Assembly: GCA_016703765.1 (NCBI GenBank)
Contig: JADJBL010000006.1
Span: 166,161 to 230,160, forward strand
From: Saprospirales bacterium
Lineage (GTDB): Bacteria > Bacteroidota > Bacteroidia > Chitinophagales > Saprospiraceae
Direction: 5' to 3'
Length of the DNA: 64,000 bases
Shown here: in pieces, positions 1,910 through 16,609 of the stretch
Layout: every line of letters starts with the position of its first letter
Numbering within the stretch: the first letter of the stretch is position 1
The notes under the pieces: generated by a model
Seen by the model: only the letters and a program-made list of their open reading frames with translations
Databases searched by the model: none
What the model was told of the DNA's origin: nothing
Program-made: the position numbers and the translations under genes

Positions 1910-1938
1910 TGCTCTTCCACTTTAATGGGTAAAACATT

Positions 1939-3594
1939 TCATTTAATAAAATAGGGCCCCAGCTCCTCCTGGAAATAGGCCATCGCATTACGCACCGGAA
2001 GCGGTATCCCTCCTCCGAGGGCGCAAAGCGAGCCTTTCTCCATGGTGGTGAGCAGGTCGGTGAACAATTCCTGGTCGATAAAATACTTTTCGTGTTGCGC
2101 CTTGTGCAGCAACTCCTGTCCCCGCACCGAGCCCAGGCGGCAGGGGAAGCACTTTCCGCAGCTTTCGTGGGCCGTAAACTCAAAAAGATGTTCGAGGTAA
2201 GCCACGACGGGATAATCCTCCGGCAAACCGATCATGGATGCGTGGCCAAGCAGGAAACCCTGCTGGGCAAAGGATTCGAAATCGAGCGTGAGGTCGGCGA
2301 ACTTGTGAACAGGCACCAGTCCGCCGAGCGGGCCTCCGATGTGCAGGGCCTTGACGGGCTTGCGGAATCCCTTCCCGAGCTTTTCAATGACGTCCAGCAG
2401 GGGTGTTCCCATATCCGCTTCGTACACGCCGGGGCGGTTGAAGGAGCTATCGAGCGATACCAGCTTGGTGCCGGTGGACCTCCCGCGGCCTATGGCGGCG
2501 AAAGGGGCTCCTCCATGGACGAGGATATGGTAGAGGTTGGCCAGGGTTTCGACGTTGTTGACCAGGGTGGGTTTGCGGAACAAGCCCTCGTTGGCGGGGA
2601 AGGGGGGACGCACCCTCACCTCCGGCCGCTGGCCTTCGATAGAGGCGAGTAAAGCGGTTTCTTCCCCACAAACATAAGCCCCTTGTGCCCGGATCATTTT
2701 AAACTGAAAATCGAAGCCCGAGCCGAGGATATCGCGTCCGGCCAGGTTGCGGGCCTCGAGCTCTTCGATGGCTTCCTGAATGGCGCGGATGGATTCGGGG
2801 TATTCGGCGCGGATATACACTACGCCTGCTTTGGCGCCGATGACATACCCCGCGATGACCATGCCGAGCAGCAGGGAATAGGGACGTTGTTCGAGGATAT
2901 ATCGGTCGGAGAAGGAGCCCGGATCGCCCTCATCGGCATTGCAGACGACGAATTTCGGACTGCCCATGGCTTCCTTACAGGTCTGCATCTTGATGCCGAG
3001 CGGGAAGCCCGCTCCGCCGCGGCCGCGGAGTCCCGACTGTTTGATGTTTTCCAAAATGCCGTCGGGGGGCGTCTGGAACATCCGGTTGATCTGTTCCATG
3101 ATCTCTTTCCAGGCGGGGGGAGACGCGGTGAGAACAGGGGCGCCCAGGGCTTCGACCTGATAGGCATCGTTGCCGTCTTTGGTCTCATGCCGCTTAATGG
3201 CTGCGATTTGTTCGGCCGATTTTCCGGAGTAATTGACCCCCTCGAAATGGAAGGCGCTGTTTTCGTGGCAACGGCCCAGGCAGCACATTTCCCCGATCTC
3301 CTGTTCTGAAAAATGATGGCCCATGGTTTCCCGGAGCTTATCCTGGGTTCCGGCCACCAGGCAGGCGCTGCCGTTGCAGAGGTAGACCTTCTTGCCGGCG
3401 TTTGCCTGGCGGGTAAAATCGTAGAATGAAGCCGTGCCGTACATAGTAGCCGGCCGCATGAGGAACTCTTCGGCCAGTTGGGTTAGCGCTTCCTGCGAGG
3501 GGCTCCCCGTTTTTTCGGAAAGCTCGCCGATCCGCTCGAACAAGTTGTCCGTCAAGCCTTTGCGACCGGAAAGGTGAGATAGATTTTTCGACAT
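1939..3594 (-). CDS. fdsB: Formate dehydrogenase beta subunit: fused NuoE-like and NuoF-like diaphorase
   Basis: 551 residues. This is the diaphorase half of a soluble NAD-dependent formate dehydrogenase, carrying FMN and NAD sites and passing electrons between the alpha subunit and NAD. Residues 1-125 form a NuoE-type thioredoxin-like 2Fe-2S domain with the four cysteines in CNGSAC and CCLGRC. From about residue 150 the protein is NuoF-like, with the GRGGAGFPLG nucleotide loop, CNADEGDPG, the YVCGEETALLAS segment, and the C-terminal 4Fe-4S motif SCGKCFPCRLG. Rhodobacter-type FdsB is built similarly but usually has a separate small FdsG. None is visible here, although it could lie beyond the window start. 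The gene leads a minus-strand operon with the alpha subunit. Its promoter must lie in the AT-rich 3595-3760 stretch, shared with the divergent gene. Confidence 0.9.
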   Translation of the reverse strand: MSKNLSHLSGRKGLTDNLFERIGELSEKTGSPSQEALTQLAEEFLMRPATMYGTASFYDFTRQANAGKKVYLCNGSACLVAGTQDKLRETMGHHFSEQEIGEMCCLGRCHENSAFHFEGVNYSGKSAEQIAAIKRHETKDGNDAYQVEALGAPVLTASPPAWKEIMEQINRMFQTPPDGILENIKQSGLRGRGGAGFPLGIKMQTCKEAMGSPKFVVCNADEGDPGSFSDRYILEQRPYSLLLGMVIAGYVIGAKAGVVYIRAEYPESIRAIQEAIEELEARNLAGRDILGSGFDFQFKMIRAQGAYVCGEETALLASIEGQRPEVRVRPPFPANEGLFRKPTLVNNVETLANLYHILVHGGAPFAAIGRGRSTGTKLVSLDSSFNRPGVYEADMGTPLLDVIEKLGKGFRKPVKALHIGGPLGGLVPVHKFADLTLDFESFAQQGFLLGHASMIGLPEDYPVVAYLEHLFEFTAHESCGKCFPCRLGSVRGQELLHKAQHEKYFIDQELFTDLLTTMEKGSLCALGGGIPLPVRNAMAYFQEELGPYFIK

Positions 3595-3746
3595 AGGTTT
3601 TATTGGTTAGGCCGGCAGAAAACATGCCAACTTGAAAAGTAGGCATAATGTGACAATTTTCAAATTTTTTCATCAAAAGCAGGCAAACTTTTGTCCTTCC
3701 GCAGGCCGGGAGGCAAATAAAAGCAGCCTTTCAGTCAAATACCCCA

Positions 3747-3754
3747 TATATTTG
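3747..3754 (+). promoter_or_regulatory. Candidate Bacteroidota -7 element (TATATTTG)
   Basis: TATATTTG matches the TAnnTTTG consensus of Bacteroidota housekeeping promoters and lies 43 bases before the chosen ATG at 3798. No convincing -33 TTTG is seen at the usual 19-base spacing, so the call rests on one element. The rest of 3595-3797 is AT-rich and holds the divergent promoter of the formate dehydrogenase genes, which I could not place. Confidence 0.35.
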
Positions 3755-3797
3755 CGTTAGATATTTGGCGGATTTTAGCCCCCATAAACATAAACCT

Positions 3798-6050
3798 ATG
3801 AGAAAATTTTGGATACTCTCCATCTGCCTGTCCTTTCTGAGCCTTCAACTGAATGCCCAGGGCGGGATGACGCTTTACAACATGCCTTATATCCCGCAGG
3901 CAAGCTACCAGAACCCGGCGAACACCCCTCTTTGCAATTTTTATCTCAGCCTGCCCATTATCTCGGGCGCCAGCTTCGGATATAACAACGACTTTTTCAC
4001 CCTGGAAGAAGTAGAAATCGATCTCAAGGCCCGTTGGGACAAGCAATACGGCGACTCCCTCCTGTCCTCCTTTGCAGACGTGGCGCTGCTGAGCAACCGG
4101 CTTGCCATACGTGGCAATTTCGACCTTTTCGGTTTCGGGCTCCGCGCCCAAAAGCATTACATCAGCTTTTACATCCGGGAGGTGATCCAGTCCGATCTGT
4201 TGTTTCCCGACGAGATGTTCCGGTTTATACGGGATTATGAAAAGGATGGCGTGGTTTACCAGACCACGAACGACTCGCCGAAAATGGTCGGTTATATCAT
4301 GAGTGGAGGTAAAATCGGCCTTACCCAATACCGCCCCTTCACCCTGCAATACGCCTACGACGTGATGCCCAACCTGACCGTGGGAGGGAATGTCAGTTAC
4401 ATTTCGGGAATCCTGACTGCCGATGCGACTATGGACACGTTTTTCACACAGATAAAACCCCAGGACCCCAACGACTACGAGGTCATCGGGCGCATCAACG
4501 TGACGACGGCCGGATATAGCAATGCCGATTCCTCCGACCTCGCCAATATTTTTATCAACCCGCAAAACAGCGGCTGGTCCTTCGGCCTCGGAGGGAAACT
4601 GACCACGATGAACAAGAGGCTGGACCTGAGCCTCAGCGCGGTGAACATCGGCCAGATCAACTGGAAACGCAAAGTGGGGCAAACGGCCTTCACAGATGCG
4701 TCTTTCGAGAATTCCGATTCTCTCGGCCAGATTTTCGACACCCTTTTCCGGGTGGAGGAAAAACCCGGCCTGATTTTCAAACAAAAGCTGAATCCCGAAT
4801 TTTTTCTCGGCGCCAATTATTACCTGAGTCAAAATATGTCCGTCGGCGCCCTTTTCCGGGTACAACCCATATACCAAACCCTTTACTCCTCCGTCACCCT
4901 GGCGTTTAATGCGAGGGTAGGAAAATGGCTTGGCTTTTCCACCGGCTATTCCTATACCGGCCGTGCCCACAACATTCCCTTTGGCTTGTCACTCAATCCG
5001 GGCCCGATACAGCTCTACGTCATTTCCGACAACCTGCTGGGATTTCTCGTGCCGGCATCCGCCAGGCAGATTCACCTTCAGGCCGGCCTCAACTTAACCT
5101 TCGGCAAGACGAGCCGCCCCTGGGACGAATTGCCCACCGTGCCGGAAAGAACGGATGCGCTGATCGACCAATACAAGCCCGGTTATAAGGATCCGGTCAC
5201 CGAGCCCGCAGACTCCGAGCCCGCAGACCCCGAACCGCTTGGGGTCGAAGAACCCGGCTTGCCCCCCCGCGATACCATTTATCCGCCCGATGGCGGAGAG
5301 GAGCCCCTTTACAAGGAAGACGAACCCGACGTGACCTCCTATATGGTCACCAACCCGATCTACCTATACCGGGGGCCGAGTTCCAACACCACGGTGCTGG
5401 ATACGATTATGCCCAACACGGTCATGAATGTCCTTCAGAAAAGATTGCCCGACTGGTGGTATGTGGAATACGGAGAGAATTCCGGCTGGATACAACCCCG
5501 CAGCATCCGGCCTTCCTATGAGCTGCCCTCCTCCGTTCAGGAGGAATCCGATATTCCCGACCCCGTAATTCAGTTTTCTCCCCTGGATTACATTATGCTC
5601 GAAAATACACCCATGCGGGAAATGCCTTCCGAGACCTCGAAAGAGACCCACTCCATGAAAAAGTGGGACGAAGTGCTGGTATTGGAAAAGACCAATTCGA
5701 GCTGGTGGAAGATCCGCCACGGCAAATTCGAAGGGTATGTAAAGTCGGCCATGCTGAACCCCCGTCCGGACAATTACGTCCGTCCGGAGGTGGTGGAAGA
5801 AGCGCCCCCGAAGCCGCCGGTTGTGGCGCCGAAGCCCGCTCCTTCAGGTAGTAGTCTGGGCGTTTTTGTGGTGAATGAATCCACCAGCCTTCGCTCCGGC
5901 CCTACCCATGAATCGAACTCCCTCGTCCGCGTGCGGTCGGGAGCAAAAGTGAACCTATTGGAAAAGACCAACCAGTTCTGGTGGAAAGTGGAGACAAACG
6001 GCCAAACTGGCTATATCAAGGCGGCTAACCTCAGCTCCCCAGAAAATTGA
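3798..6050 (+). CDS. DUF5723-family outer membrane protein with three C-terminal SH3b domains
   Basis: I start at the ATG at 3798, because MRKFWILSICLSFLSLQLNAQ is a clean signal peptide and the upstream in-frame ATG would put 11 charged residues before it. After the leader, about 430 residues resemble DUF5723 (LYNMPYIPQASYQNPANTP entry motif, alternating beta strands, probably an outer membrane barrel). A Pro/Glu linker follows at roughly residues 450-520. Three bacterial SH3 repeats come next, each with the WWYVEYG/WWKIRHG/WWKVETN core and a final GYIK- or GWIQ-type strand. The SH3b repeats suggest peptidoglycan or protein binding in the periplasm, anchoring the barrel to the wall; that role is inferred. 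The gene overlaps the convergent neighbour by 20 bases at its 3' end. Confidence 0.75.
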   Translation: MRKFWILSICLSFLSLQLNAQGGMTLYNMPYIPQASYQNPANTPLCNFYLSLPIISGASFGYNNDFFTLEEVEIDLKARWDKQYGDSLLSSFADVALLSNRLAIRGNFDLFGFGLRAQKHYISFYIREVIQSDLLFPDEMFRFIRDYEKDGVVYQTTNDSPKMVGYIMSGGKIGLTQYRPFTLQYAYDVMPNLTVGGNVSYISGILTADATMDTFFTQIKPQDPNDYEVIGRINVTTAGYSNADSSDLANIFINPQNSGWSFGLGGKLTTMNKRLDLSLSAVNIGQINWKRKVGQTAFTDASFENSDSLGQIFDTLFRVEEKPGLIFKQKLNPEFFLGANYYLSQNMSVGALFRVQPIYQTLYSSVTLAFNARVGKWLGFSTGYSYTGRAHNIPFGLSLNPGPIQLYVISDNLLGFLVPASARQIHLQAGLNLTFGKTSRPWDELPTVPERTDALIDQYKPGYKDPVTEPADSEPADPEPLGVEEPGLPPRDTIYPPDGGEEPLYKEDEPDVTSYMVTNPIYLYRGPSSNTTVLDTIMPNTVMNVLQKRLPDWWYVEYGENSGWIQPRSIRPSYELPSSVQEESDIPDPVIQFSPLDYIMLENTPMREMPSETSKETHSMKKWDEVLVLEKTNSSWWKIRHGKFEGYVKSAMLNPRPDNYVRPEVVEEAPPKPPVVAPKPAPSGSSLGVFVVNESTSLRSGPTHESNSLVRVRSGAKVNLLEKTNQFWWKVETNGQTGYIKAANLSSPEN

Positions 6051-7638
6051 TCGAGACGCTCAGGAAATAACCCAATTGGTAGCGTCCCGTGGTCGGTATC
6101 CCCAACGCAGGTGAATCGAGCACGTCTCCTATGTTGTAACCGCTGGAAAGCGCTTGCACCCTGGCGCCGAGTATCCCGCCGGTGAGCGTAATGCGTTGTG
6201 CGCCGCCCATGAAGATGCTCGGCCCCAGGAAGAAGGCCATTGACTGTTCGTTCTGGGTGTTGAACACCGGGATCCCCACGCCGAAGGAGCCGCCAAAGGC
6301 CAGCTGATCGGGGCGATAGGGGTAAAAGTGCAGGAAGGAGGCCAGGTAGGGCACAAAGCTGTCTTCTTCCTCGGAAAGGATGACCGAGTCTCTCACAAAA
6401 TAAGCCTCCGGTCTGTTGAAAAACTGGCCGAAGCCCAGTCCCACGCTGCCGTTGATCTTCAGTCCGCCCTTCGTGGGAATCTTGAAAGAGGCCAGTTTTC
6501 GGCTGGATAGCTGGATGTTGGAAGGCAGATTTTCCTTCGGGTTCAGTTTTACGATCAGCTCGGTGATATCCTGTTCGGCCGTGGTTTGGAATTTATAGGT
6601 GAAATTATTCGACAGGATCTCTTCATAAGTATAGCGCAGATTGATCAGGTCCTGGAAATCTCCTGGCCCGGACTCTTCAATGGCTCCGACGAGGGATTCG
6701 TAGGCCACATCCAGGCGGGCCCGCTCTTTTTCCCCTTTCTGCAAGGATCCCTGGATCGAATGGTCGATTTGCTGATAAACCTCCATCACCTTGGGGGAGC
6801 GAATTTTTTCCTTTATGGGGGTCAGGGACAGGGCCAGCAGCTGGATCTCCGCCAGTTTTGAATTGTAGTTGGTCCGTTCGGATTCGACGTTTTTGAGGTG
6901 GACGTTCAACTCCTGCCCCTTTTGGTGAATTTTCCACAAGTAGTCCATGTCGATCTCCGAAGGAGGAGTGTTGGAAAAGACCATTTGCAGATATTCATCC
7001 GACAGCTTTTTGATCTGGGTGACGGACAGGTTGGGGTTGAACTGCAATTTGCGGATCTCCTCGGTAGCCATCGCCTGCACTGCTTTGGCGTTGACCAGGC
7101 GTTCCACGTCCATCTGGATGGCTTGCAGATTGTTTTCAGTCTGGGCCCATTCGCCGAGCACTTTTTCGTACTGGACTTCGAGGTCCTGCATTTGCCGGAG
7201 GATCTGCATCTCTTCCTCATCGGCCGCAAAACCCTTGGACCCGAAGGACAAACCTCCGAGGAAGGATAGCTGGCCCTGGGCGAGCGGGTTCATGCCGAGC
7301 AAGCCGGCGGGATTCATGATGACGGACATCAGATCGAAGGCCGAGCCGCCACCGGGGCCCTTAGCCAGGCCGGAAACCTGGCTGGTATCCAGGCCCGTCG
7401 AAAAATAACTGGTTTGGCGCTGGATTTCCTCGATCTCGATCTCGTACAGGTAATTGTTGTAGTTGATCAAATACAAATCAATAGGTTCCCCTCTTTTCAC
7501 CTTGGGTTCTTTGAGGGTGTCCCTTCCGGAGACAAAGGTGCTATTTCCGGTGGATGCATCGATGTAAATCTCCAGTCCCTGGGAAAAAGACGGGGCATAA
7601 AACAACAACAGAAGAATTAAACTGGGGAGGGTTTTCAT
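6031..7638 (-). CDS. Exported protein with coiled-coil middle and beta-rich C-terminal domain, unknown function
   Basis: 535 residues, family not recognised. There is a signal peptide (MKTLPSLILLLLFYAPSFSQ). A short beta domain follows (EIYIDASTGNSTF ... YEIEIEEIQRQ). A small Gly/Met-rich stretch is next, around residues 95-135. A long charged helical region, about 140-330, looks like a coiled coil. The last 150 residues alternate hydrophobic and polar residues and end in an outer-membrane-like strand (YFLSVSINFLGS). The protein therefore probably sits in the outer membrane with a periplasmic coiled coil. Its stop lies inside the last codons of the DUF5723/SH3b gene on the other strand, so the two genes share a convergent 20-base overlap. 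No enzyme motif is visible. Confidence 0.6.
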   Translation of the reverse strand: MKTLPSLILLLLFYAPSFSQGLEIYIDASTGNSTFVSGRDTLKEPKVKRGEPIDLYLINYNNYLYEIEIEEIQRQTSYFSTGLDTSQVSGLAKGPGGGSAFDLMSVIMNPAGLLGMNPLAQGQLSFLGGLSFGSKGFAADEEEMQILRQMQDLEVQYEKVLGEWAQTENNLQAIQMDVERLVNAKAVQAMATEEIRKLQFNPNLSVTQIKKLSDEYLQMVFSNTPPSEIDMDYLWKIHQKGQELNVHLKNVESERTNYNSKLAEIQLLALSLTPIKEKIRSPKVMEVYQQIDHSIQGSLQKGEKERARLDVAYESLVGAIEESGPGDFQDLINLRYTYEEILSNNFTYKFQTTAEQDITELIVKLNPKENLPSNIQLSSRKLASFKIPTKGGLKINGSVGLGFGQFFNRPEAYFVRDSVILSEEEDSFVPYLASFLHFYPYRPDQLAFGGSFGVGIPVFNTQNEQSMAFFLGPSIFMGGAQRITLTGGILGARVQALSSGYNIGDVLDSPALGIPTTGRYQLGYFLSVSINFLGS

Positions 7639-7790
7639 AATAAAGGGGGCTTTGATTTCAAGAATCGAATTAAATCATTTTTTCTGAATGCGAACAAAAA
7701 AAAAGTATTAAAGCACTTTGCTTACAAAGTGCCTGGCCCCCATTTGTCATCAAAAGATGAAACTTTCGAAAAAATCCACGATAATTGGGT

Positions 7791-8990
7791 ATGGCATTTT
7801 TGAGAAAATTCATAGCCCCCCACGCGTTGATCATTACGATCCTTACCTTTCTGTTTATCTGGCTGTTTCAAATATTTTTTTTCAGCCGCCATTTTCTCGA
7901 CCCTTTTAACAATGGTCTGCGCGATTACGAAATCACGGACATCGTGTATTCGCAGTTTCGGAACTCCCAATCCGTTCAGCCCATTACAGAAGTTGTTTTG
8001 GTCAATTGCGGCCTCCCCGACCGGGGAAAACTGGCTCAATTGCTCGACCGGATCAGTCGTCTGGAGCCCGCGGTGGTAGGTTTGGACATCGAACTGGCGG
8101 GGCTTAAAACTCCCCAAACAGATTCCCTGCTGAAAGCGGCCATCGACAAGAATCCCCGCATGGTGTTGGCTTGCCGCCTGGTCTCCTACGACCGTCAGAG
8201 CGATCTGTTCGACCCTCCCATCAATTGCGACCCGTATTTTTCCGAAGGCAAAAAAACGGCTTTTACCAATTTTGTCTCCGAGGATACGAGCATCATCCGC
8301 CTGTTTTCGCCGGGAGAAATGACCATTCAAGGGCCGGTCCCGGCCTTTGCCGTGGAGATTGCACGCCAATTTGCCCCGGAAAAGGCCGAAAAGTTGATGA
8401 AACGAAGAAATCCGGTAGAGAGGATCTGGTATTCCGGCAACCAGGAGCACTTCATCAAGGTGGAAGATTCCCTGCTGCTGAACGACGCCACCTTCCAAAA
8501 CTTTCTGAACAACGACGTGTTGAAGGGCCGGATCGTCATGATCGGCTATGTGGGCAACCACCAACCCGGCGAACCGGAAATAGACCGGTTTTTCACACCG
8601 CTCAATCCGCGCTACACCGGGAAAAGCTACCCGGATATGTACGGTTTGGAGATCCACGCCAATATCGCCGCGATGATCCTGCGGGAGCAATACATTTACC
8701 AGATCCCCAAATGGGCCGAGGAATTATTGGGATGGCTGTTTTGTTATTTCAACGTCTTGTTATTCCACTGGATATACGTCCACGTGCGATCGACCTTTCA
8801 CGGGATAACCCGATTGATCCAATTGCTGGAACTGGCTTTCATGTTTTTTCTCATCGCCCTGTTTTTTTATTATTTCAGGATACAATTCAACCTGACTCAT
8901 GGAATTTTAGCAATGGTGCTATCTTATGATTTCATCATGATCTACGAAAGCCTGATCAAGGAAAAAATCAAAATCCTCCAAAAAATATGA
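7791..8990 (+). CDS. CHASE2-domain membrane sensor protein
   Basis: About 399 residues. I start at the ATG at 7791; a TTG two codons upstream is possible. There is one N-terminal membrane segment (HALIITILTFLFIWLFQIFFF). A CHASE2-like extracytoplasmic domain follows (DYEITDIVYSQFRNSQSV, VVGLDIELAG, the conserved GRIVMIGYVG and GLEIHANIAAMIL motifs). The C-terminus has about three membrane helices and ends soon after the last one, with no kinase, cyclase or other output domain. CHASE2 domains sense unknown signals in the periplasm. Without an output domain it must act through partners. The next gene starts inside its stop codon (ATGA at 8987), so it is translationally coupled to the FecR-like protein, the obvious candidate partner. 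Confidence 0.85.
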   Translation: MAFLRKFIAPHALIITILTFLFIWLFQIFFFSRHFLDPFNNGLRDYEITDIVYSQFRNSQSVQPITEVVLVNCGLPDRGKLAQLLDRISRLEPAVVGLDIELAGLKTPQTDSLLKAAIDKNPRMVLACRLVSYDRQSDLFDPPINCDPYFSEGKKTAFTNFVSEDTSIIRLFSPGEMTIQGPVPAFAVEIARQFAPEKAEKLMKRRNPVERIWYSGNQEHFIKVEDSLLLNDATFQNFLNNDVLKGRIVMIGYVGNHQPGEPEIDRFFTPLNPRYTGKSYPDMYGLEIHANIAAMILREQYIYQIPKWAEELLGWLFCYFNVLLFHWIYVHVRSTFHGITRLIQLLELAFMFFLIALFFYYFRIQFNLTHGILAMVLSYDFIMIYESLIKEKIKILQKI

Positions 8991-9979
8991 CCGCTCGAAC
9001 CCTTTTGTTGTTAGCTCTTTCCCTACCTCTATGCACCGCCCTGAATGCACAACCTACCGCGCAGTTTATCGTCATGAATATTACCGGGACCGTCCGCTAC
9101 TGTGAAAAACCGGGGGCGGAGCAATGCGAACTCGTGCCGGGACAGACCCTCGGGCCGGAATCCATCGTGACGCTTCCATCGGGATCCACCGCACGCCTGC
9201 TGTTTGAAGACCAAAGTATATCCCTGAAAGAAGCGGGGAATTATCCCCTGAAAAGTCTGGCTGCCAGCCAGACGCCCGCCAGTACTTCGTTTATGAAGCG
9301 CTTCTTCAACTACGTGTACGAAGGGATCGTCAATACGAGCGGTTCCAAAAAGATTGAAGAGTACCACGAGTTGTATATTCCGCAGTCCAGCGGGGGCATA
9401 AAAGGATTTGCGGGCGGGGACTACGGCATCGCCCTCACCCGTCCGGTAGCCGGAAATCTTCCGGAAGGGCCCGTCGTGTTCGAATGGTTTACGGCGGGCG
9501 ACCAGACGCTTTACGACTTTCAGATCATCGACTTCCAGACGGAGGGCCTTTTGTTTAAAGCCCTGCTCCGGGATACTTCCTTTTCTCTGGATTTGAGCAA
9601 GCTTGCTATCGAACCCGGCAGGAAATACTACTGGTACGTCCAATTGAAGAGCCTGGGTGAAATGGCCCTCGGATTTCCACTGGTCGACGACCCCTCCATG
9701 CGCTCCCCAAAAGTGGAGGTCGTGATGTCCGGTAAAGGGAATTCCGGTTTGATGAATTCCCTGGAAGCCTCTCCGGAATATCTGGAAGCGGGCGAATCCG
9801 ACCGACTGTTGATGAAAGCACAGGTATTCGAAGAAGCGCAGTATATTTACGAAGCAAACGAGACTTTTTTGAAAGCCATCGAACTCCACCCGGCCGATCC
9901 GGTCTTGCAGAGGGTCTACGGCGCCTTCCTGGTTCGCCAGGGCTTGTGGCAGAGCTCTCAGAAATACCTGCGTTCTTAA
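8987..9979 (+). CDS. FecR-like periplasmic protein with TPR-like tail (first copy)
   Basis: 330 residues, beginning with the signal peptide MTARTLLLLALSLPLCTALNAQ. Residues 30-85 look like a FecR beta domain (TGTVRYCEK, PGQTLGPESIVTLPSGSTARLLFED). A middle beta region resembles the carbohydrate-binding-like domain seen in cyanobacterial FecR/DUF928 proteins (FEWFTAGDQTLYDFQII, KYYWYVQL). The last 70 residues form one or two TPR-like helix pairs (AQYIYEANETFLKAIELHPADP). A second, diverged copy lies at 11682-12719. It overlaps the CHASE2 gene by 4 bases and is followed after 15 bases by the metallopeptidase gene, so the three form one operon. Classical FecR proteins regulate sigma factors through the inner membrane; with no transmembrane helix or sigma factor here, that role is unlikely. 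Confidence 0.75.
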   Translation: MTARTLLLLALSLPLCTALNAQPTAQFIVMNITGTVRYCEKPGAEQCELVPGQTLGPESIVTLPSGSTARLLFEDQSISLKEAGNYPLKSLAASQTPASTSFMKRFFNYVYEGIVNTSGSKKIEEYHELYIPQSSGGIKGFAGGDYGIALTRPVAGNLPEGPVVFEWFTAGDQTLYDFQIIDFQTEGLLFKALLRDTSFSLDLSKLAIEPGRKYYWYVQLKSLGEMALGFPLVDDPSMRSPKVEVVMSGKGNSGLMNSLEASPEYLEAGESDRLLMKAQVFEEAQYIYEANETFLKAIELHPADPVLQRVYGAFLVRQGLWQSSQKYLRS

Positions 9980-9994
9980 CCAAAATACCCCCCG

Positions 9995-11630
9995 ATGATC
10001 TCCCTATTGCTCCCTTCCCTGTTCCTTTTATTTCAAAAAACGAGCGCATTACCGGCGCCCAACCCGAAGTACGAACACGCCAAACAGATCTTCGAGCGCC
10101 TCATAGAAGCCAGGGGCGACAAGAGCATGAAAGCCCCCGAACTCCTGTGGACCGTGGAAGCGGCCAGCGGCCTATTACACGCCAGGAACCAACCAGATCA
10201 CCCTGGAGGAAAAAGCCTACGAAGTATGCACTGCACTGGGAGACCAAACGGACGCCGCTCTCGCTTTTATCCTCGCCCACGAGTTGATCCACTACTATAA
10301 GCAGCACGGCTGGGAGGCCAATTTCGGGCGAAAGTTCGGCGATCAGCAGATCGGGCAGGACGTCGACGAGAACTTGCGCGACATGAAGCAACAGGAAACC
10401 GAATCGGATCTTTTGGGCGGGTTTTTGGCCTATACCGCGGGTTACAATACCGTAGGCGTGGCGCCCCAACTGCTCCGGGGGCTCTACGATAGCTATCCGA
10501 ACTGGCCCAAAGGGGAAAATAGCAAGTACCCCACCCTGGATGAGCGTATTTTGATCGCCCGGACCACCGAAAAGGACCTGACCGTGCTGATCCGCATGTT
10601 TGAAACCGCCAACCTTCTGGTCGCGGTGGAGCGATACGATGCAGCCATGCAATACTACAACTACATACTTTCCTTCTACAAAAGCAGGGAACTGGTCAGC
10701 AATCAGGGCGTCGTCACCTGCATGGCGGCCATGAAACTGTTCGAAAAGGGGGACCTGGAATACCTTTACCCTCTCGAACTGGACGCCGAAGCGCGCGTTC
10801 GCCTTGGAACGAAAGGTTTTGACGATCCCCAGGGAGGGAAAGCCGCTCGCGATTCCCTGCTCCAGTCTGCCATCGGCCTGTTTGAGGAAGCCCTCTCGCT
10901 CGACCGCGGCTACCATACCGCCAGGCTGAATATGGCCAGCGCCTACGCCCTGTTGGCCCTTTCCAATGCCGAACTGGGAGAGGAGGAGGAGTCGAACTAC
11001 GATTTCGCCAACCTGTACGCCAAACAAGTGGTTCGGAGGGCCCAAAAGGAGAGCAACCCCAAACTCAACGCCGATGCATTGGCGCTGATGGGGATTATTG
11101 CCGTCAAGACTGGGGAGGGAGACGCCGCCGCCCTTTTTGAATCGGCCAAAGATAAAAGCATGCTGGCCCAGTACAACCTGGATATCCTCCGCAAGACGCC
11201 GGCCAGTCCACCCCTGGGCAAAAAGCCTAAAGAACCGATGGTCGAGCAGATCGAGGAATTTCCGATGGACCGCTTCGCGCCCCGGCCCTCTGCCGACAGC
11301 GCCCTGGTTAATGTCCCGGGCAAGATTAAACGCCAATGGGGTACCAAGCAAAAAGACCTGGAGCACTCCAGGATTTTGATCGATGTGGCGAGCCGCACCG
11401 ATTATGCGCTATTCCAAATAAGTACCCCTTCCTATCCGGGGCAAACCTTACTCGGGCTCAAAGCCGGCGCAAGCAGGAAAGATATCCTGGACAAATACCT
11501 TCAGCCCGACCGCGAAGTTCAACTCCCAAACGGGCACCTGATGGTGTACGGCGCCGACGAGATCATTTTCTGGCTGGATGAAAACCAAAAACTGGCACGG
11601 TGGTGCATCTACCGCATGGTGCCGAAGTAG
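9995..11630 (+). CDS. M48-like HExxH metallopeptidase with TPR region (copy 1, frame broken near 10172)
   Basis: Signal peptide at 9995 (MISLLLPSLFLLFQKTSA). The N-terminal half reads in one frame to about 10170 and the rest in another. Joining SG to YYTPGTNQITLEEKAY by dropping one base in the GGCC at 10170-10174 restores a protein of about 544 residues that is collinear with the intact paralogue at 14984. The zinc motif HELIHYY is followed by ETESDLLGG, the usual HExxH...ExxxD ligand set of M48-type gluzincins. TPR-like helices (MFETANLLVAVERYDAAMQYY) follow, then a C-terminal domain shared with the paralogue (LLGLKAGASRKDIL ... WCIYRMVPK). It lies third in the CHASE2-FecR operon. The break could be a real frameshift, but other one-base breaks in this window favour a sequence error. 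Confidence 0.7.
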
Positions 11631-11681
11631 GCCGGCTCAGCCCTTTATTTTTTGAATTTACAAATCCAAAACCTATACATT

Positions 11682-12719
11682 ATGAAAAGGATCCCCCTCC
11701 TTGCCCTTTGTCTGGTATTCCTGGCGCCGGCCGGCGCATGGGCCCAGAACGAAGCGCCACTTGTCGTCATGGAATGCCAGGGACAAGTCAAGTATTCCAG
11801 TCCCGACCGCCCTAAACCCGTTGAAGTCACACCGGGCATGATCGTCTCCCGCGAAGGCACGTTCAAGCCCAAAAAAGGAGCCAGCGTTCAACTCCTCAAC
11901 AACACGGAGCTCGTCTCCGTAGAATTGAAGGCAAAAATAAAAGTCCAGGATGCAGTTCCTCCCGCTCCCTCAGGGGGCCGCTTTGGCTTTGGAGGCGATT
12001 TTCTTTCCATGGTCAAAGAGACCGCGTTAGCTACCGATGCAGCCATGGCCCCGCGCACTAGCACCAAGGGCGCCGGCGGCGATGAGCCGCCCCCTCCGCC
12101 CAATACCCGCAAAGGCGCAGGTGGGGATGAGCCTCCTCCTCCTCCGAGTACCCGCAAAGGCGCCGGCGGCGATGAGCCTCCCCCTCCGCCCAACACCAGA
12201 AAAGGAGCCGGAGAGGGCCTCACCATGGTGAACTGGAATTTCCCGATCAAGGGGAAGATGTTTGCTTCCGGTCAGATACCTTTCTCTTGGGATGGCTATT
12301 TCAAAGAGGAGGGGCCCTGGCTTTTTTCTATTTCCCAGGCAGGGTCCGGAGAAAAAGTGTATGAAACGAAAACCACAGACCCCTTTGTTTCCATCAATAC
12401 CGTTCAGGGCAAGCTTTCGATAGGAAACTCCTATGTGTGGAGGGTGCAGGCTGCCGACCAACCGGTGGAAGCGATGAAGGCCTACGAATTTTCGCTGGTG
12501 CAGGAAAATGCCGAAAAAGGAGTCCTCGATGTGGTCGCTATGGAGCCGGAATACGAAAAAGCCGGTCCGGTGCAGAAGCTCCTCTGGGAGGCCTACGCCT
12601 TTGAAGAGGCAAAGTTCCTTTCGAAAGCAGATGCGCTTTACAAAGAAGCACTCCGGCTCGACCCGGCAAACGGCTTGGCTGTTCAGTTGTACAGGGCCTT
12701 CTGGGCCCGGAATTGGTAA
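11682..12719 (+). CDS. FecR-like periplasmic protein with Pro-rich tandem repeats (second copy)
   Basis: 345 residues from the ATG at 11682, chosen because it begins the signal peptide MKRIPLLALCLVFLAPAGAWAQ. The N-terminal FecR-like segment (VMECQGQVKYSS ... PGMIVSREGTFKPKKGASVQLL) matches the first copy. A spacer of three full 15-residue repeats (KGAGGDEPPPPPNTR type) then separates it from the second half. The C-terminal half again has the IPFSWDGYF / SYVWRVQAAD beta domain and a TPR-like tail (AKFLSKADALYKEALRLDP). The spacer is absent from the first copy and probably extends the protein across the periplasm. It starts 51 bases after the metallopeptidase stop and is closed by the terminator at 12741. 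Confidence 0.75.
   Translation: MKRIPLLALCLVFLAPAGAWAQNEAPLVVMECQGQVKYSSPDRPKPVEVTPGMIVSREGTFKPKKGASVQLLNNTELVSVELKAKIKVQDAVPPAPSGGRFGFGGDFLSMVKETALATDAAMAPRTSTKGAGGDEPPPPPNTRKGAGGDEPPPPPSTRKGAGGDEPPPPPNTRKGAGEGLTMVNWNFPIKGKMFASGQIPFSWDGYFKEEGPWLFSISQAGSGEKVYETKTTDPFVSINTVQGKLSIGNSYVWRVQAADQPVEAMKAYEFSLVQENAEKGVLDVVAMEPEYEKAGPVQKLLWEAYAFEEAKFLSKADALYKEALRLDPANGLAVQLYRAFWARNW
12066..12212 (+). repeat. Tandem 45-bp coding repeat (3.3 copies)
   Basis: Three in-frame 45-base units at 12066, 12111 and 12156 encode KGAGGDEPPPPP plus N/S-T-R, followed by a 12-base partial unit. The units differ mostly at third positions (GGC/GGT, CCG/CCT), so they are kept by selection on the peptide or are not very recent. 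Confidence 0.9.
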
Positions 12720-12740
12720 GAGTAAGAGAAAGCTCCAAAT

Positions 12741-12780
12741 AAAAAAAGCCCCCCGACCGCTCGTCGGGGGGCTTTTTTTT
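12741..12780. terminator. Bidirectional intrinsic terminator
   Basis: A perfect 11-base stem, AGCCCCCCGAC (12747-12757) with GTCGGGGGGCT (12763-12773), and a 5-base loop. It is preceded by a run of A and followed by a run of T, so it can end transcription of both the FecR-like gene (plus) and the caspase gene (minus). Confidence 0.93.
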
Positions 12781-14882
12781 TACTCTTCAAAGTATTGCTT
12801 CGTCAATTTTTCGAAGCGCTCGGTCTGGCGCAGGGTCGCGAACTTTTCCTCCTCCAGGATCTTGGCCTTGTTGACGTAGCCGTTTTCAAGGGCTTTTTCG
12901 AGCCACTCCAGCGCCTTTTCCTGGTCGTTTTGTTCGGCATAAAGCAGGCTGATGGAGTAGTAGGGTTCGAGGTAGCCGGGCGTAATTTCGAGGTTGGCTT
13001 TAAATGCCTCTATGGCCTTTTGGGGTTGCCCGGTTCTTTTCAGAGCGATCCCGAGGGCGTAATGGGCGTAAGGGTGTTGGGGACTAATCTGAATGGTTTT
13101 TTCATACATGTCCTGCGCCATTCCCGCCCGGTCGGTTTTGAGGTAAATATTCCCCAGGGCGTAGTACCCAACGGGATCGAAATGGCTTTCCCTTGCCTGG
13201 GCCTTGTAGAGTTCGAGGCCTTTCAGATAGGCCGATTCGGCTTCCTTCAGGTTTCCCTTCGATTCCTCTATTAGGGCCAGTTGGATCTGCGCTGGAGGGA
13301 ACTCGGGTTTGATCTGGATAGAGCGCGCGATCCATAATTTGGCGGTGTCGGGATTGCCTTGCTCTCTTTGGGAGATACCCAGGTTATAAACCGGCATGAC
13401 CCATTGGGGGGCCAGCTCATTGGCCTTCCGGTAGGCCTTTTCTTCGAGATCCGGATTCCCCAGCCCAGCCTGAATCAAGCCCAGTTCGTTGTACAGGTGG
13501 GCGCCCTTTGGTTCCAGTGCGATAGCTTCTTCTATCTTTTTCAGTGCTTGTTGTTCCAACTCCTGCGATTCCTTTTCCTCTCCTTCCATTCGCAGGAGCA
13601 TAGCCTCGAAATAGAGTTGTTTGGACTGGATAGCGGGAACCATATAGTGGCCGGGGCCCAATAGCTCAGCTGATTTGTTCAGGTAGGAAGGGATATGGGT
13701 AAAGGCTTCGGGGCCTTCTTCCCAGCGTCGGGTCATTTCTGTCGGATCTGTGTTCAGGTAGGCGTTTATGGCCTGTTGGGCGTCGTCCTGGAGGGCTACG
13801 GCCAGGTTTCTTCGCAAGGCTGCGGCGGTTTGGCTCCATTCGGGACGCTGGGATAGCTGTTGGTAATAGTAGTAGGCGGAGTTGTTTTCCGGGATGAGCA
13901 GCCGTTTCTCTGCCAGGGCCAATTCAAAAGCCTCGACGAGGTCCTGGCCCAGGGAGTCGGCTTTTCCTGCCTGGGTTTCCCTGCCTCGGGTTGCCACCGC
14001 GCTAAAAACACCGGATTGCTGGGATTTTTCTTTTTGAATTTGGGCCAGGATTTCCGGATTCACCCAGGCGATGGTCTCGTTGCGGTCGAAAATAGTCTGC
14101 GGTACCTGGCTGTTGGGGGCGGTTTCCTCGGGTACCCGGTCTTCGAGGTAGCGACGGATCTCCAGCAAGCTGACCTCGTAATTGGCGTCGCGGTCGGCAA
14201 GGCCCATCAGTCCATCGATCAGGTGGTAGGAGAAAGCCCCCCGGCCTCCACCCCATTGGGTTCCTTCCTGCGAAAGCTCCTCCGGTCCGCAGGCGAGGAT
14301 CTTCACCTCATTGCCGAATTTTTGCTGGAGGTTTTGGTTGGTGATCTGGGTTCCCTGAATGGAAGAACCGGCCAGTTTGCCGGCATGGCATGCATCGGCG
14401 ACCATAATCACCTTGGCCTTGTTTTGGTTGGAAAGCGCGGCAATGACCATTTGCAAGTAGAAAATCGGGTAAGCGCCCGCGATATAAGGCCGGGAAGGAG
14501 AATCCCAGGGGAGCAGGAATCCCTGCATGGTTCGGTTCTCCACATCCCCGTGGCCGGAGAAGTATATGTAGACCTGATCGGCTTCCCCGGCTTTTTCGAG
14601 GAGCCAGTCCATGGCGTCCGCGTAGGCTGCCATGGTGGCCTGTTCGTTTACGAGTAGTTTGATCTGCTCGGTGGGGACGCTCCCGCCCGCGGGAGATTTG
14701 AGGTATTCGAAAAATGCCAGCGCATCCTTATGTGCATATTGGAGGTCGCTGATCTCCTTATTCTGATAATCGGAAATGCCCGCGATGACAGCCCAGGTCT
14801 TTTTCCCAACGCCCGGAGATGCGATTTGCGCATGGAGGGAAAGGGTGGCAAACAGGAAAACGAGTGACAGGCGATATTGCAT
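12780..14882 (-). CDS. Secreted caspase-family (C14) protein with TPR repeats
   Basis: 700 residues. A signal peptide (MQYRLSLVFLFATLSLHAQ) precedes a caspase/metacaspase-type domain at about residues 27-270. The catalytic dyad is intact: His111 in YFSGHGD and Cys165 in ADACHAGKLAG. The segment WAVIAGISDYQ is the typical first strand of the family. A linker region (about 270-430) leads to at least six TPR units to the C-terminus (LYNELGLIQAGLGNPDLEEKA, YYALGNIYLKTDRAGMAQ, PYAHYALGIALKRTGQPQ). This predicts a protease in the periplasm or outside the cell that cuts after basic residues, with TPRs to recruit partners; substrate unknown. It lies between the two M48-like peptidase genes on the opposite strand and shares a terminator with the FecR-like gene. 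Confidence 0.88.
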   Translation of the reverse strand: MQYRLSLVFLFATLSLHAQIASPGVGKKTWAVIAGISDYQNKEISDLQYAHKDALAFFEYLKSPAGGSVPTEQIKLLVNEQATMAAYADAMDWLLEKAGEADQVYIYFSGHGDVENRTMQGFLLPWDSPSRPYIAGAYPIFYLQMVIAALSNQNKAKVIMVADACHAGKLAGSSIQGTQITNQNLQQKFGNEVKILACGPEELSQEGTQWGGGRGAFSYHLIDGLMGLADRDANYEVSLLEIRRYLEDRVPEETAPNSQVPQTIFDRNETIAWVNPEILAQIQKEKSQQSGVFSAVATRGRETQAGKADSLGQDLVEAFELALAEKRLLIPENNSAYYYYQQLSQRPEWSQTAAALRRNLAVALQDDAQQAINAYLNTDPTEMTRRWEEGPEAFTHIPSYLNKSAELLGPGHYMVPAIQSKQLYFEAMLLRMEGEEKESQELEQQALKKIEEAIALEPKGAHLYNELGLIQAGLGNPDLEEKAYRKANELAPQWVMPVYNLGISQREQGNPDTAKLWIARSIQIKPEFPPAQIQLALIEESKGNLKEAESAYLKGLELYKAQARESHFDPVGYYALGNIYLKTDRAGMAQDMYEKTIQISPQHPYAHYALGIALKRTGQPQKAIEAFKANLEITPGYLEPYYSISLLYAEQNDQEKALEWLEKALENGYVNKAKILEEEKFATLRQTERFEKLTKQYFEE

Positions 14883-14983
14883 GAAGCTTGGGTTTGTAAA
14901 TGTAAAAAGCGAATTTCGGGAAAAAATCGTTATTCACGAATGATAGGAATTTTTCCCTTCTTAATAAATACCCCCCCCCATAC

Positions 14984-16609
14984 ATGAAAAAATTCTTGTT
15001 GTCCCTGCTTACCGGATGCCTTTTCTCCGGAATTTCCACAGCTTCCCCTCCGCTTATTGCCGAGTACAAGCTGGAAACCGCCCACCGGGTATTTGAACGC
15101 CTGATCCTCGCTCGCGGCGATTTTGGACTCCCCAAGCCCAAGCTGGAACTGTTGTCCAACCCCAAAGAACTGGCCCGTTTTTCCGGTCAGACGGTTTATC
15201 TGGGGGAGAAGGCCTACGACCTTTGCGCCTCTTTTGGCGCCGATTCGCTCAATGCCCTGGCGGCCCTGTTGTCTCATGAGTTGATCCATTACTACGCAGG
15301 GCACACCTGGGAGGACGAATTCTCGCGGGAGTTTGCCACAGCCGATCTGAGGGAGGACGTCAAAGACAGCTGGCTGGAAGACGAAGTGCAGGCCGACCTA
15401 TGGGGAGGGTTGCTGGCTTTCTCGGCCGGATATAATGTGCAGGCGGTCGTGCCCGTGTTTCTTCCGAAATTGTATCAATCCTTTGGAAAAGAGGAAGACC
15501 TTGCCGGATATCCCCACCTTTCGGAGCGGATACAACTGGCCAAACAATCCGGAGAAAAACTCGACGAACTCCTCCGGTATTTTGAAACCGCCAACTATCT
15601 GGTCGCCATCGGAATGTACGAAGATGCCCTGGGTTATTACCAGGCCATACTCAAGGAGGGATACCGCGGACGGGAGATGTACAACAACATCGGAGTATAT
15701 TACGTCCAGGCGGCTCTCGGGCTGTTCCGGAAAACCGATATCCCCTTCGGGCTCCCGCTGGAGCTCGACGTTCAGGCCCGGATCGGACCCAATACGAAGG
15801 GAAACACCCTGGGAAACAAGGAACAGCGGGAGCAATTCCTCCAGGAGGCTATCCGCTATTTCGAGTCCGCCAGGAGCATGGATCCGGAATACACCACTGC
15901 GTTGATCAATCTGGGATGTGCGCATATCCTCCTTGGCGTTTCCACCCGGGTCGACGACCCGGATCAGGGGGATCTGCATTTTTCGCAGGCCCAGATCATG
16001 GCCAAAAAAGCGGAGCGGGAAACGGGAAACCGCCGCAAGCAAAACACCGATGTGCTGGTTTTGCGGGGCTTACTGGCCGCTTTGCAGGAGGATACTCCTT
16101 CTGCCCGCCGGTATTGGGAGTCGGCGAGCTCGCCTCTGGCTCTGTCTAATGTTCAGGTTTTGGAGAAAGGCGCCTTTGGAGTGAGCGGAGAGCGGCTTCC
16201 CCGGGCCAACGAGCGCGAGCGGATCGAAGACTATTCGCTCGACCTGTTCCTACGGCAGCCGCTTTTCGATACCCAAAGCGGGTTAGAGGCCTCCTTCGGG
16301 AAATTCCAATGGGGTAAATGCCGGGCAAAAGCAAGCCTCTCGAATTCCAATATTTATCTCCATTCCGTTGGTCCAGGCAGGTATGCCCTTTTGCAGGCGA
16401 CCGATCCGGGGTACAGCGGGTCATCCCTTCTGGGCATTCGGCTGGGCAGCAAGCGGGAGGACGTGATTTCGGCCTATAAAACCCCCGATGCGGTGGTGCA
16501 GTTGGGAAACGGGGAGTTTCTGGTCTATCCGGCCCGGGAGATCCTGTTTCGACTAGACGAACAGCAGCAGGTGACCGGCTGGTGTGTGTTCCGGGCGGTC
16601 AAACCCTGA
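14984..16609 (+). CDS. M48-like HExxH metallopeptidase with TPR region (copy 2, intact)
   Basis: 541 residues with an N-terminal signal segment (MKKFLLSLLTGCLFSGISTA). The Cys in this leader could also make it a lipoprotein. The zinc-binding site is HELIH at residues 98-102 followed by E134 in EDEVQAD, the M48 pattern. After it come TPR-like helices (RYFETANYLVAIGMYEDALGYYQ; EAIRYFESARSMDPEYTTALINLG) and the C-terminal domain shared with the 9995-11630 copy, ending WCVFRAVKP. Its promoter lies in the 100 AT-rich bases between it and the divergent caspase gene, so the two may be controlled together. No other cysteine or serine protease motif is present. The substrate is unknown. Confidence 0.8.
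   Translation: MKKFLLSLLTGCLFSGISTASPPLIAEYKLETAHRVFERLILARGDFGLPKPKLELLSNPKELARFSGQTVYLGEKAYDLCASFGADSLNALAALLSHELIHYYAGHTWEDEFSREFATADLREDVKDSWLEDEVQADLWGGLLAFSAGYNVQAVVPVFLPKLYQSFGKEEDLAGYPHLSERIQLAKQSGEKLDELLRYFETANYLVAIGMYEDALGYYQAILKEGYRGREMYNNIGVYYVQAALGLFRKTDIPFGLPLELDVQARIGPNTKGNTLGNKEQREQFLQEAIRYFESARSMDPEYTTALINLGCAHILLGVSTRVDDPDQGDLHFSQAQIMAKKAERETGNRRKQNTDVLVLRGLLAALQEDTPSARRYWESASSPLALSNVQVLEKGAFGVSGERLPRANERERIEDYSLDLFLRQPLFDTQSGLEASFGKFQWGKCRAKASLSNSNIYLHSVGPGRYALLQATDPGYSGSSLLGIRLGSKREDVISAYKTPDAVVQLGNGEFLVYPAREILFRLDEQQQVTGWCVFRAVKP

Follow-up and report, generated by a model that had tools for sequence, protein, structure and literature searches.

A conserved block of CHASE2, FecR/DUF928-like, M48-TPR and exported caspase genes in a Saprospirales bacterium and its relatives

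We analysed a stretch of 64,000 nucleotides of DNA from a Saprospirales bacterium (assembly GCA_016703765.1, contig JADJBL010000006.1, positions 166,161 to 230,160 of the forward strand), hereafter the window, and within it a block of seven genes encoding, from left to right, an exported coiled-coil protein that we call UP (minus strand), a CHASE2 membrane sensor, a FecR-like protein, an M48-like TPR protein, a second FecR-like protein, a caspase-TPR protein (minus strand) and a second M48-like TPR protein. As this block is kept across many related bacteria, and as distant bacteria carry the same sensor beside similar genes, it is probably one working unit; the existence of the unit is well supported, while its mechanism is inferred. 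Our tentative preference, to which we give somewhat less than an even chance, is for a single transenvelope unit in which a sensory pair made of CHASE2 and a FecR/DUF928-type protein is linked to the M48-TPR and caspase-TPR enzymes of the periplasm. The role of the unit is probably the quality control or the maturation of envelope proteins. A first-pass annotation of this DNA had described six adjacent genes: all six exist, although the first M48-like gene is without an intact frame, and the divergent gene of UP belongs to the block as its seventh member.

The linkage of these genes was examined in 77 loci (L001-L077) collected via the M48-like family, which include close pairs (L040/L041 and the Saprospira grandis strains L049/L050). 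When profiles built up from the window proteins were applied at a threshold of at least 50 bits, the FecR-like family was found in 43 loci, the caspase in 41, CHASE2 in 28 and UP in 26, and all five families were present together in 17 of the 77, many of the contigs being short. Such a recurrence argues against a chance neighbourhood. Directly downstream of CHASE2, within 1 kilobase (kb) and on the same strand, a FecR-like frame is found for 27 of the 30 CHASE2 genes of the loci and the window, and of 35 well-flanked loci, 23 have a caspase gene at most 5 kb from an M48-TPR gene (41/77 overall). The order of the window, with UP and the caspase on the minus strand, is the recurrent one and is complete in the cultured bacterium Neolewinella agarilytica DSM 24740 (L036). 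In variants of this order, which are common, UP and CHASE2 are separated by an M48 gene (L019, L027, L028, L040 and L041) or the caspase lies on the opposite strand (L003, L005, L021 and L026).

Because these loci were chosen through M48 and are partly redundant, a further sample was made of 120 genomes from one family (that of genome G004), in which each protein family was searched separately; the genomes bear the same labels in every search and are taken as one set. CHASE2 was found in 16 of these genomes, M48-TPR in 33, FecR-like in 22, UP in 25 and the caspase in at least 105, with 0 to 21 C14 matches per genome among the matches listed. The shared presence of CHASE2, FecR-like, M48-TPR and UP gave Fisher p values from 9e-6 to 3e-12, kinship between genomes being ignored. 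After split matches of one gene had been merged (65 rows into 62 M48-TPR genes and 39 rows into 30 FecR-like genes), the 17 CHASE2 genes had within 10 kb an M48-TPR gene in 12 cases, a FecR-like gene in 11 and a UP gene in 10; at the same distance, an M48-TPR gene accompanied 25 of the 30 FecR-like genes and 16 of the 27 UP genes. Five of the 17 CHASE2 matches (L079, L080, L092, L093 and L095) were missed by our own CHASE2 profile, and their loci of 3-4 kb contain no block partner scoring above 20 bits; the matches of L079 and L080 lie in longer frames of 751 and 658 amino acids (aa). The remaining 12 have at least one block partner each. A scatter of homologues without shared neighbourhood, the outcome which the first-pass annotation had set against its own proposal, is thus not what was found: the four families co-occur and co-locate in the 120 genomes, and a similar order recurs in many loci.

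As first described, the CHASE2 protein of the window (401 aa) is a sensor without output domain. Indeed, it matches PF05226 with an E-value of 1.5e-22 (80.9 bits, cut-off 26.3), and a Pfam scan returned no further domain. Its hydrophobic segments cover residues 13-31, 312-330 and 342-360, that is one at the N-terminus and at least two at the C-terminus. A fused cytoplasmic output domain is usual in CHASE2 sensors, without being obligatory, and we know of no ligand assigned to CHASE2. In a wider Bacteroidota sample, CHASE2 was found in 135 of 395 genomes, the best-scoring proteins among the matches listed lying in frames of about 530-900 aa, and a cyclase domain was present in the three that were scanned. 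At the 30 best-scoring CHASE2 loci of this sample, no score above 22 bits was obtained with the FecR-like, M48-TPR, caspase or UP profile; these loci are the strongest CHASE2 matches, CHASE2 proteins of the window type scoring lower and falling outside the loci opened. On a Bernardetia plasmid, CHASE2 and a FecR-like gene are the only block families present within a stretch of 31 kb.

The two FecR-like proteins are related to each other (24% identity in alignment, E 3e-11) and both exported, in agreement with the first description, and the overlap of 4 bases reported between the first of them and CHASE2 is real, its start at 8987 falling inside the CHASE2 end at 8990. The FecR label itself did not survive: none of 14 aligned family members had a Pfam match to FecR (PF04773), and hhalign gave 0.7% when 21 genuine FecR domains, drawn from four of the genomes studied, were the target, no better than shuffles, and 0.2% against eight CHASE2-linked alphaproteobacterial FecR proteins. 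A value of 59% against two of these eight, a pair chosen after inspecting the sequences, is counted as a hint only. With DUF928 (PF06051), the Pfam score was 15.7 bits, below the cut-off of 26, and a match of any kind (E up to 1) was present in 3 of the 14 members. The C-terminal half of the family aligned to DUF928 over 147 columns with an hhalign value of 83.4% (single-pair E 8.4e-6), the controls giving at most 1.4% for 30 column shuffles, 0.1% for the reversed profile and 10.3% for the M48-TPR family; judged from these profiles, this half appears to resemble DUF928, a family to which, to our knowledge, no function has been assigned. The second FecR-like protein (frame 11652-12719) also contains, in its middle part, three near-identical proline-rich repeats of the GAGGDEPPPPP type.

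The two M48-like proteins had been introduced as paralogous HExxH...ExxxD peptidases with TPR regions. They are related (38% identity) and both have the motif followed by TPR-like regions; Peptidase_M48 (PF01435) matched the second copy only (22.4 bits, cut-off 20.3), no M48 Pfam match being obtained in the listed open reading frame (ORF) of the first, 10284-11630, whose motif stands in the readable frame. This first gene starts at 9995 in one frame and is carried on by a second, which is open from 10131; the break lies between 10131 and 10299. Since an intact homologue of 545 aa (P0070) is 98% identical across the whole 448-aa query taken from it, the break is not general and reflects either a mistake in the assembly or an interruption peculiar to this strain. 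A copy 99% identical to the second protein is present in a public metagenome-assembled genome of a Saprospirales bacterium. Among relatives scoring at least 300 bits, HExxH...ExxxD is kept in 98 of 99, and an alignment of 25 sequences has its residues invariant or nearly so. The AlphaFold2 model of the second protein has a predicted TM-score (pTM) of 0.77, and its top Foldseek match in the PDB is Escherichia coli BepA (6ait, E 1.6e-5). By a crude hydrophobicity count, a leader was present in 90 of 96 M48-TPR proteins, a measure that missed the second M48 protein of the window, whose N-terminus is by eye signal-peptide-like. Four M48-TPR copies occur in a single stretch in L075:9839-20423 and likewise in G090:C20:56979-66855.

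The exported caspase-TPR protein stands as first described, its gene being on the minus strand and divergent from the second M48-like gene. It matches PF00656 (E 9e-16, 58.7 bits, cut-off 21.4) and TPR (E 1.9e-23), its N-terminus is signal-like, and the His111/Cys165 dyad sits within SGHG and DACH motifs that are both present in 50 of 53 relatives scoring at least 200 bits. By the same crude count, 44 of 58 caspases have a hydrophobic leader. The exceptions include a long caspase with a WD40 N-terminal part (L014:523-4215, plus strand), which, being without leader, is perhaps a cytoplasmic relative. Long low-scoring caspase ORFs are also seen in L011, L012, L023, L025 and L035, and several loci have long caspases just upstream of the block. 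Membership of a defence system was considered and rejected: searching seven window proteins with PADLOC at E 0.001 returned nothing besides its general caspase profile (E 4.9e-19). The EACC1-associated caspase profile (NF047832) gave 63.5 bits, below its curated cut-off of 140. We know of no role assigned to exported bacterial caspases.

UP combines a signal-like N-terminus with a small N-terminal beta region, a long helical coiled-coil region and C-terminal strands. By the crude hydrophobicity measure, a leader was counted in all 26 UP proteins, as compared with 61 of 62 FecR-like proteins. In its AlphaFold2 model (pTM 0.50, mean predicted local distance difference test score 74), the C-terminal strands, at about 50-74, possibly form a small outer-membrane barrel. 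Its matches in the PDB are weak, with helical bundles first and PagP and OmpA at E 0.03-0.13.

The coordinates of the seven genes are collected in the table. A SusC-type receptor gene comes next after the last of them; in the relative loci searched, its only match was in the window itself, and the block is therefore taken to end before it. On the other side, the window encodes at 3765-6050 (plus strand) a DUF5723 protein with three SH3 domains, whose family was matched, among the relative loci, only in L027. The type IX secretion cargo domain Por_Secre_tail had no match in eight window proteins scanned. An all-against-all search for further conserved neighbours returned mostly antisense shadows and one cluster that looked real (19 ORFs from 18 of 78 loci). 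This cluster, for example L019:13593-15125, is a gene of about 200 aa with sigma-70 region 2 below cut-off in one scanned member, and a second recurring family, found in five loci and directly after the sigma-like gene in L019, has a sub-threshold zinc-finger match.

Table. Genes of the block, in positions of the window.
Feature	Position	Strand	Remarks
UP, exported 535-aa coiled-coil protein, divergent from CHASE2	6031..7638	-	signal-like N-terminus
CHASE2 membrane sensor without output domain	7791..8990	+	ATG at 7791; start in ORF list TTG at 7785
FecR-like/DUF928-like exported protein 1	8987..9979	+	4-base overlap with CHASE2; DUF928 profile match of the family
M48-like TPR protein 1, broken frame	9995..11630	+	long ORF 10284-11630; intact homologue P0070
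FecR-like exported protein 2	11682..12719	+	three GAGGDEPPPPP-type repeats; start in ORF list TTG at 11652
Exported caspase (C14) with C-terminal TPR array	12780..14882	-	PF00656 and TPR matches; His111/Cys165
M48-like TPR protein 2, 541 aa	14984..16609	+	PF01435 match; H98 E99 H102 ... E134 xxx D138

Beyond the Bacteroidota, the cyanobacterial neighbourhood of CHASE2, DUF928 and CHAT genes, which the first-pass annotation had brought up, proved real. With a cyanobacterial DUF928 protein as query, tblastn gave 21 plasmid records, 19 of which have CHASE2 within 10 kb (ten opened records by annotation, L096, L097, L101, L104-L109 and L111; L103 by profile; eight unopened ones by tblastn coordinates). 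Of the two exceptions, L102 is without CHASE2 in its 16-kb stretch, and in L110 the sensor gene lies on the far side of the record start, at a distance of 12.3 kb. In L103 the CHASE2 gene (1531-4026, minus strand) is split into two ORFs and unannotated. A CHAT gene is annotated in eight of the thirteen opened records, and ShlB/FhaC or filamentous haemagglutinin genes occur in seven. Among ten cyanobacterial CHASE2 proteins scanned, there are fusions to CHAT in five, to a kinase in two and to AAA in one. The CHAT-CHASE2 fusions are those of L096, L104, L107, L109 and L111, and the CHAT part is without the usual cysteine motif in the three examined (L096, L107 and L109). Separate CHAT proteins, seven cyanobacterial and one from Sphingobium, have the cysteine motif in 8/8, the HG motif in 5/8 and a strongly hydrophobic N-terminal segment in 5/8; in the Sphingobium one, the only protein checked for it, TPR was below cut-off. 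In Sphingobium, the CHAT gene is followed by a CHASE2-cyclase gene and then by a ShlB gene. On alphaproteobacterial plasmids (11 records found), FecR genes abut the CHASE2-cyclase gene in eight of nine opened cases; the ninth (L140:2147-5204, Rhizobium plasmid) has one very long FecR-domain frame, divergent from a Pycsar effector gene.

The pairing of CHASE2 with FecR is itself already in print. In Burkholderia, the formation of biofilm is reported to be under the control of an operon that holds LysM-FecR and CHASE2 kinase genes, its mutant losing the biofilm (PMC5192318), FecR is paired with a CHASE2 adenylate cyclase in Campylobacterota (PMC9239204), and Nostoc punctiforme has two WD40 genes, CHASE2 and DUF928 together (PMC5587647). 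Regarding caspases, a caspase-CHASE2 fusion is reported in the cyanobacterium T. erythraeum, as are 28 metacaspases in Haliscomenobacter hydrossis (PMC3501461), and among the variable parts of EACC2-caspase proteins of conflict systems CHASE2 is named as one (PMC8195603). A search of the open-access literature, most subscription papers being outside this scope, gave no paper that brings together CHASE2, FecR and a caspase, and the matches listed for CHASE2 and caspases in Saprospirales and for secreted or periplasmic caspases include no account of the block.

How such a unit might work can be proposed as follows. CHASE2 and an exported FecR- or DUF928-type partner would form an old sensory pair that may serve cyclases or kinases in some bacteria. 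The FecR/DUF928-like protein would be the periplasmic partner of CHASE2, because the cyanobacterial CHASE2-DUF928 and the alphaproteobacterial FecR-CHASE2-cyclase neighbours suggest so. In the Saprospiraceae-like group, where the sensor is without cytoplasmic output and exported enzymes lie next door, the response would be periplasmic. Gating of the M48-TPR and caspase-TPR enzymes would fall to the sensor pair, joined perhaps by a coiled-coil UP that reaches the outer membrane, and the enzymes may in turn cleave envelope or surface proteins. The purpose of this cleavage could be outer-membrane protein quality control, for which the BepA-like architecture argues, or the maturation or release of surface proteins, for which the haemagglutinin and two-partner secretion neighbours in cyanobacteria argue. 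A bolder version, which we regard as doubtful, is a periplasmic proteolytic signalling pathway in which the output-less CHASE2 and its FecR/DUF928-type partner would control exported zymogens (M48-TPR and caspase-TPR); it would perhaps have evolved when envelope proteases took the place of the cytoplasmic output in an older CHASE2 module, with the cyanobacterial CHASE2-DUF928-CHAT clusters as its counterpart.

Several observations weigh against a transenvelope unit of this kind. In the 120 genomes, 46 of the 62 M48-TPR genes have no CHASE2 gene within 10 kb, hence the family is also found away from the sensor and need not depend on it, and the proportion that has one (16/62) counts against a fixed pathway. 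The superposition with BepA is poor (TM-score 0.21-0.29, root-mean-square deviation 18-19 Å) and with a second structure aligner BepA comes after IFIT and plain TPR chains, so that perhaps only the architecture is common to both proteins; for the C-terminal alpha/beta part, which that structure search barely tests, four fragments gave no Pfam family even at E 10. UP has neither a Pfam match over cut-off nor a confident fold, and no two-partner secretion gene was present among nine window proteins scanned. Finally, as the FecR label fails, any kinship with the proteobacterial FecR partners is putative. That the block might instead consist of two or more independent modules (a CHASE2-FecR-M48 operon and a divergent caspase-M48 pair) which merely lie side by side, perhaps where genes of exported proteins tend to gather, would fit the caspase-M48 neighbours seen without CHASE2 in many loci (e.g., L010, L018, L044 and L077) and the small number of loci with all five families, though many of the contigs are short. 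We find it unlikely in view of the strong genome-level co-occurrence of CHASE2, FecR-like, M48-TPR and UP, and of the FecR-like gene recurring beside M48-TPR both with and without CHASE2.

Another reading, slightly more credible yet still rather unlikely, is that the block regulates how one particular surface adhesin or polymer is secreted or matured, UP being part of an export or anchoring machine. Near the cyanobacterial clusters and in the Sphingobium CHAT-CHASE2 stretch there are indeed the secretion or haemagglutinin genes described above (7 of the 13 opened records for the former, a ShlB gene for the latter), and the Burkholderia operon is reported to control biofilm formation (PMC5192318). 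In the Bacteroidota loci, however, no adhesin or secretion gene appeared among the scanned conserved neighbour clusters, as obtained by crude clustering, one of which was an OmpA-family protein in six loci, and UP is without known export fold. The least probable of the alternatives is a regulated lysis or cell-death module, in which the exported caspase and M48 enzymes would damage the own envelope or neighbours upon a CHASE2 signal. The caspase domain and its PADLOC profile match would agree with it, as would the cyanobacterial caspase-CHASE2 fusion (PMC3501461) and the CHASE2-bearing EACC2-caspase conflict proteins (PMC8195603). No second PADLOC match, pore-forming partner or toxin was found among the scanned proteins, which speaks against such a module. 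Moreover, the described conflict-system caspases act in the cytoplasm, unlike the enzymes of this block, which are exported.

A conserved unit joining CHASE2, a DUF928-type protein and an exported caspase, found also in the cultured N. agarilytica DSM 24740, allows all three to be studied jointly. The unit further points to a pairing of CHASE2 with an exported FecR- or DUF928-type protein that may work with cyclases, kinases and proteases in several phyla.

The comparison with known systems can be made for single proteins as well as for whole clusters. BepA/YfgC joins M48 to TPR and acts in outer-membrane protein quality control; the window protein likewise has an M48-type motif followed by TPR, and differs by its extra C-terminal alpha/beta domain and its operon context, in addition to the superposition discussed above. 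Craspase TPR-CHAT, cytoplasmic and CRISPR-bound, similarly has TPR joined to a caspase-like peptidase fold, whereas the window protein is an exported C14 caspase with C-terminal TPR and no CHAT match. The cyanobacterial CHASE2-DUF928-CHAT clusters are alike in having CHASE2 beside DUF928, to which the FecR-like family is profile-similar, and CHAT-domain genes near in many records, some with a hydrophobic leader; they differ by CHAT in the place of the caspase, by a CHASE2 fused to CHAT, kinase or AAA, by the two-partner secretion genes nearby and by having no M48-type gene in the annotations seen. In the FecR-CHASE2 adenylate cyclase pairs, a FecR-type gene adjoins CHASE2, three pairs (L133, L136 and L137) having the same 4-base overlap, but there a cyclase forms the cytoplasmic part of the sensor, neither a protease nor a caspase is adjacent, and the scanned FecR protein (L099) is a true PF04773 match, unlike the window proteins. 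The Burkholderia BiofilmReg operon similarly unites a periplasmic FecR-domain protein and a CHASE2 sensor in one operon, with the difference of a LysM domain and of an output made of a histidine kinase and a response regulator (PMC5192318).

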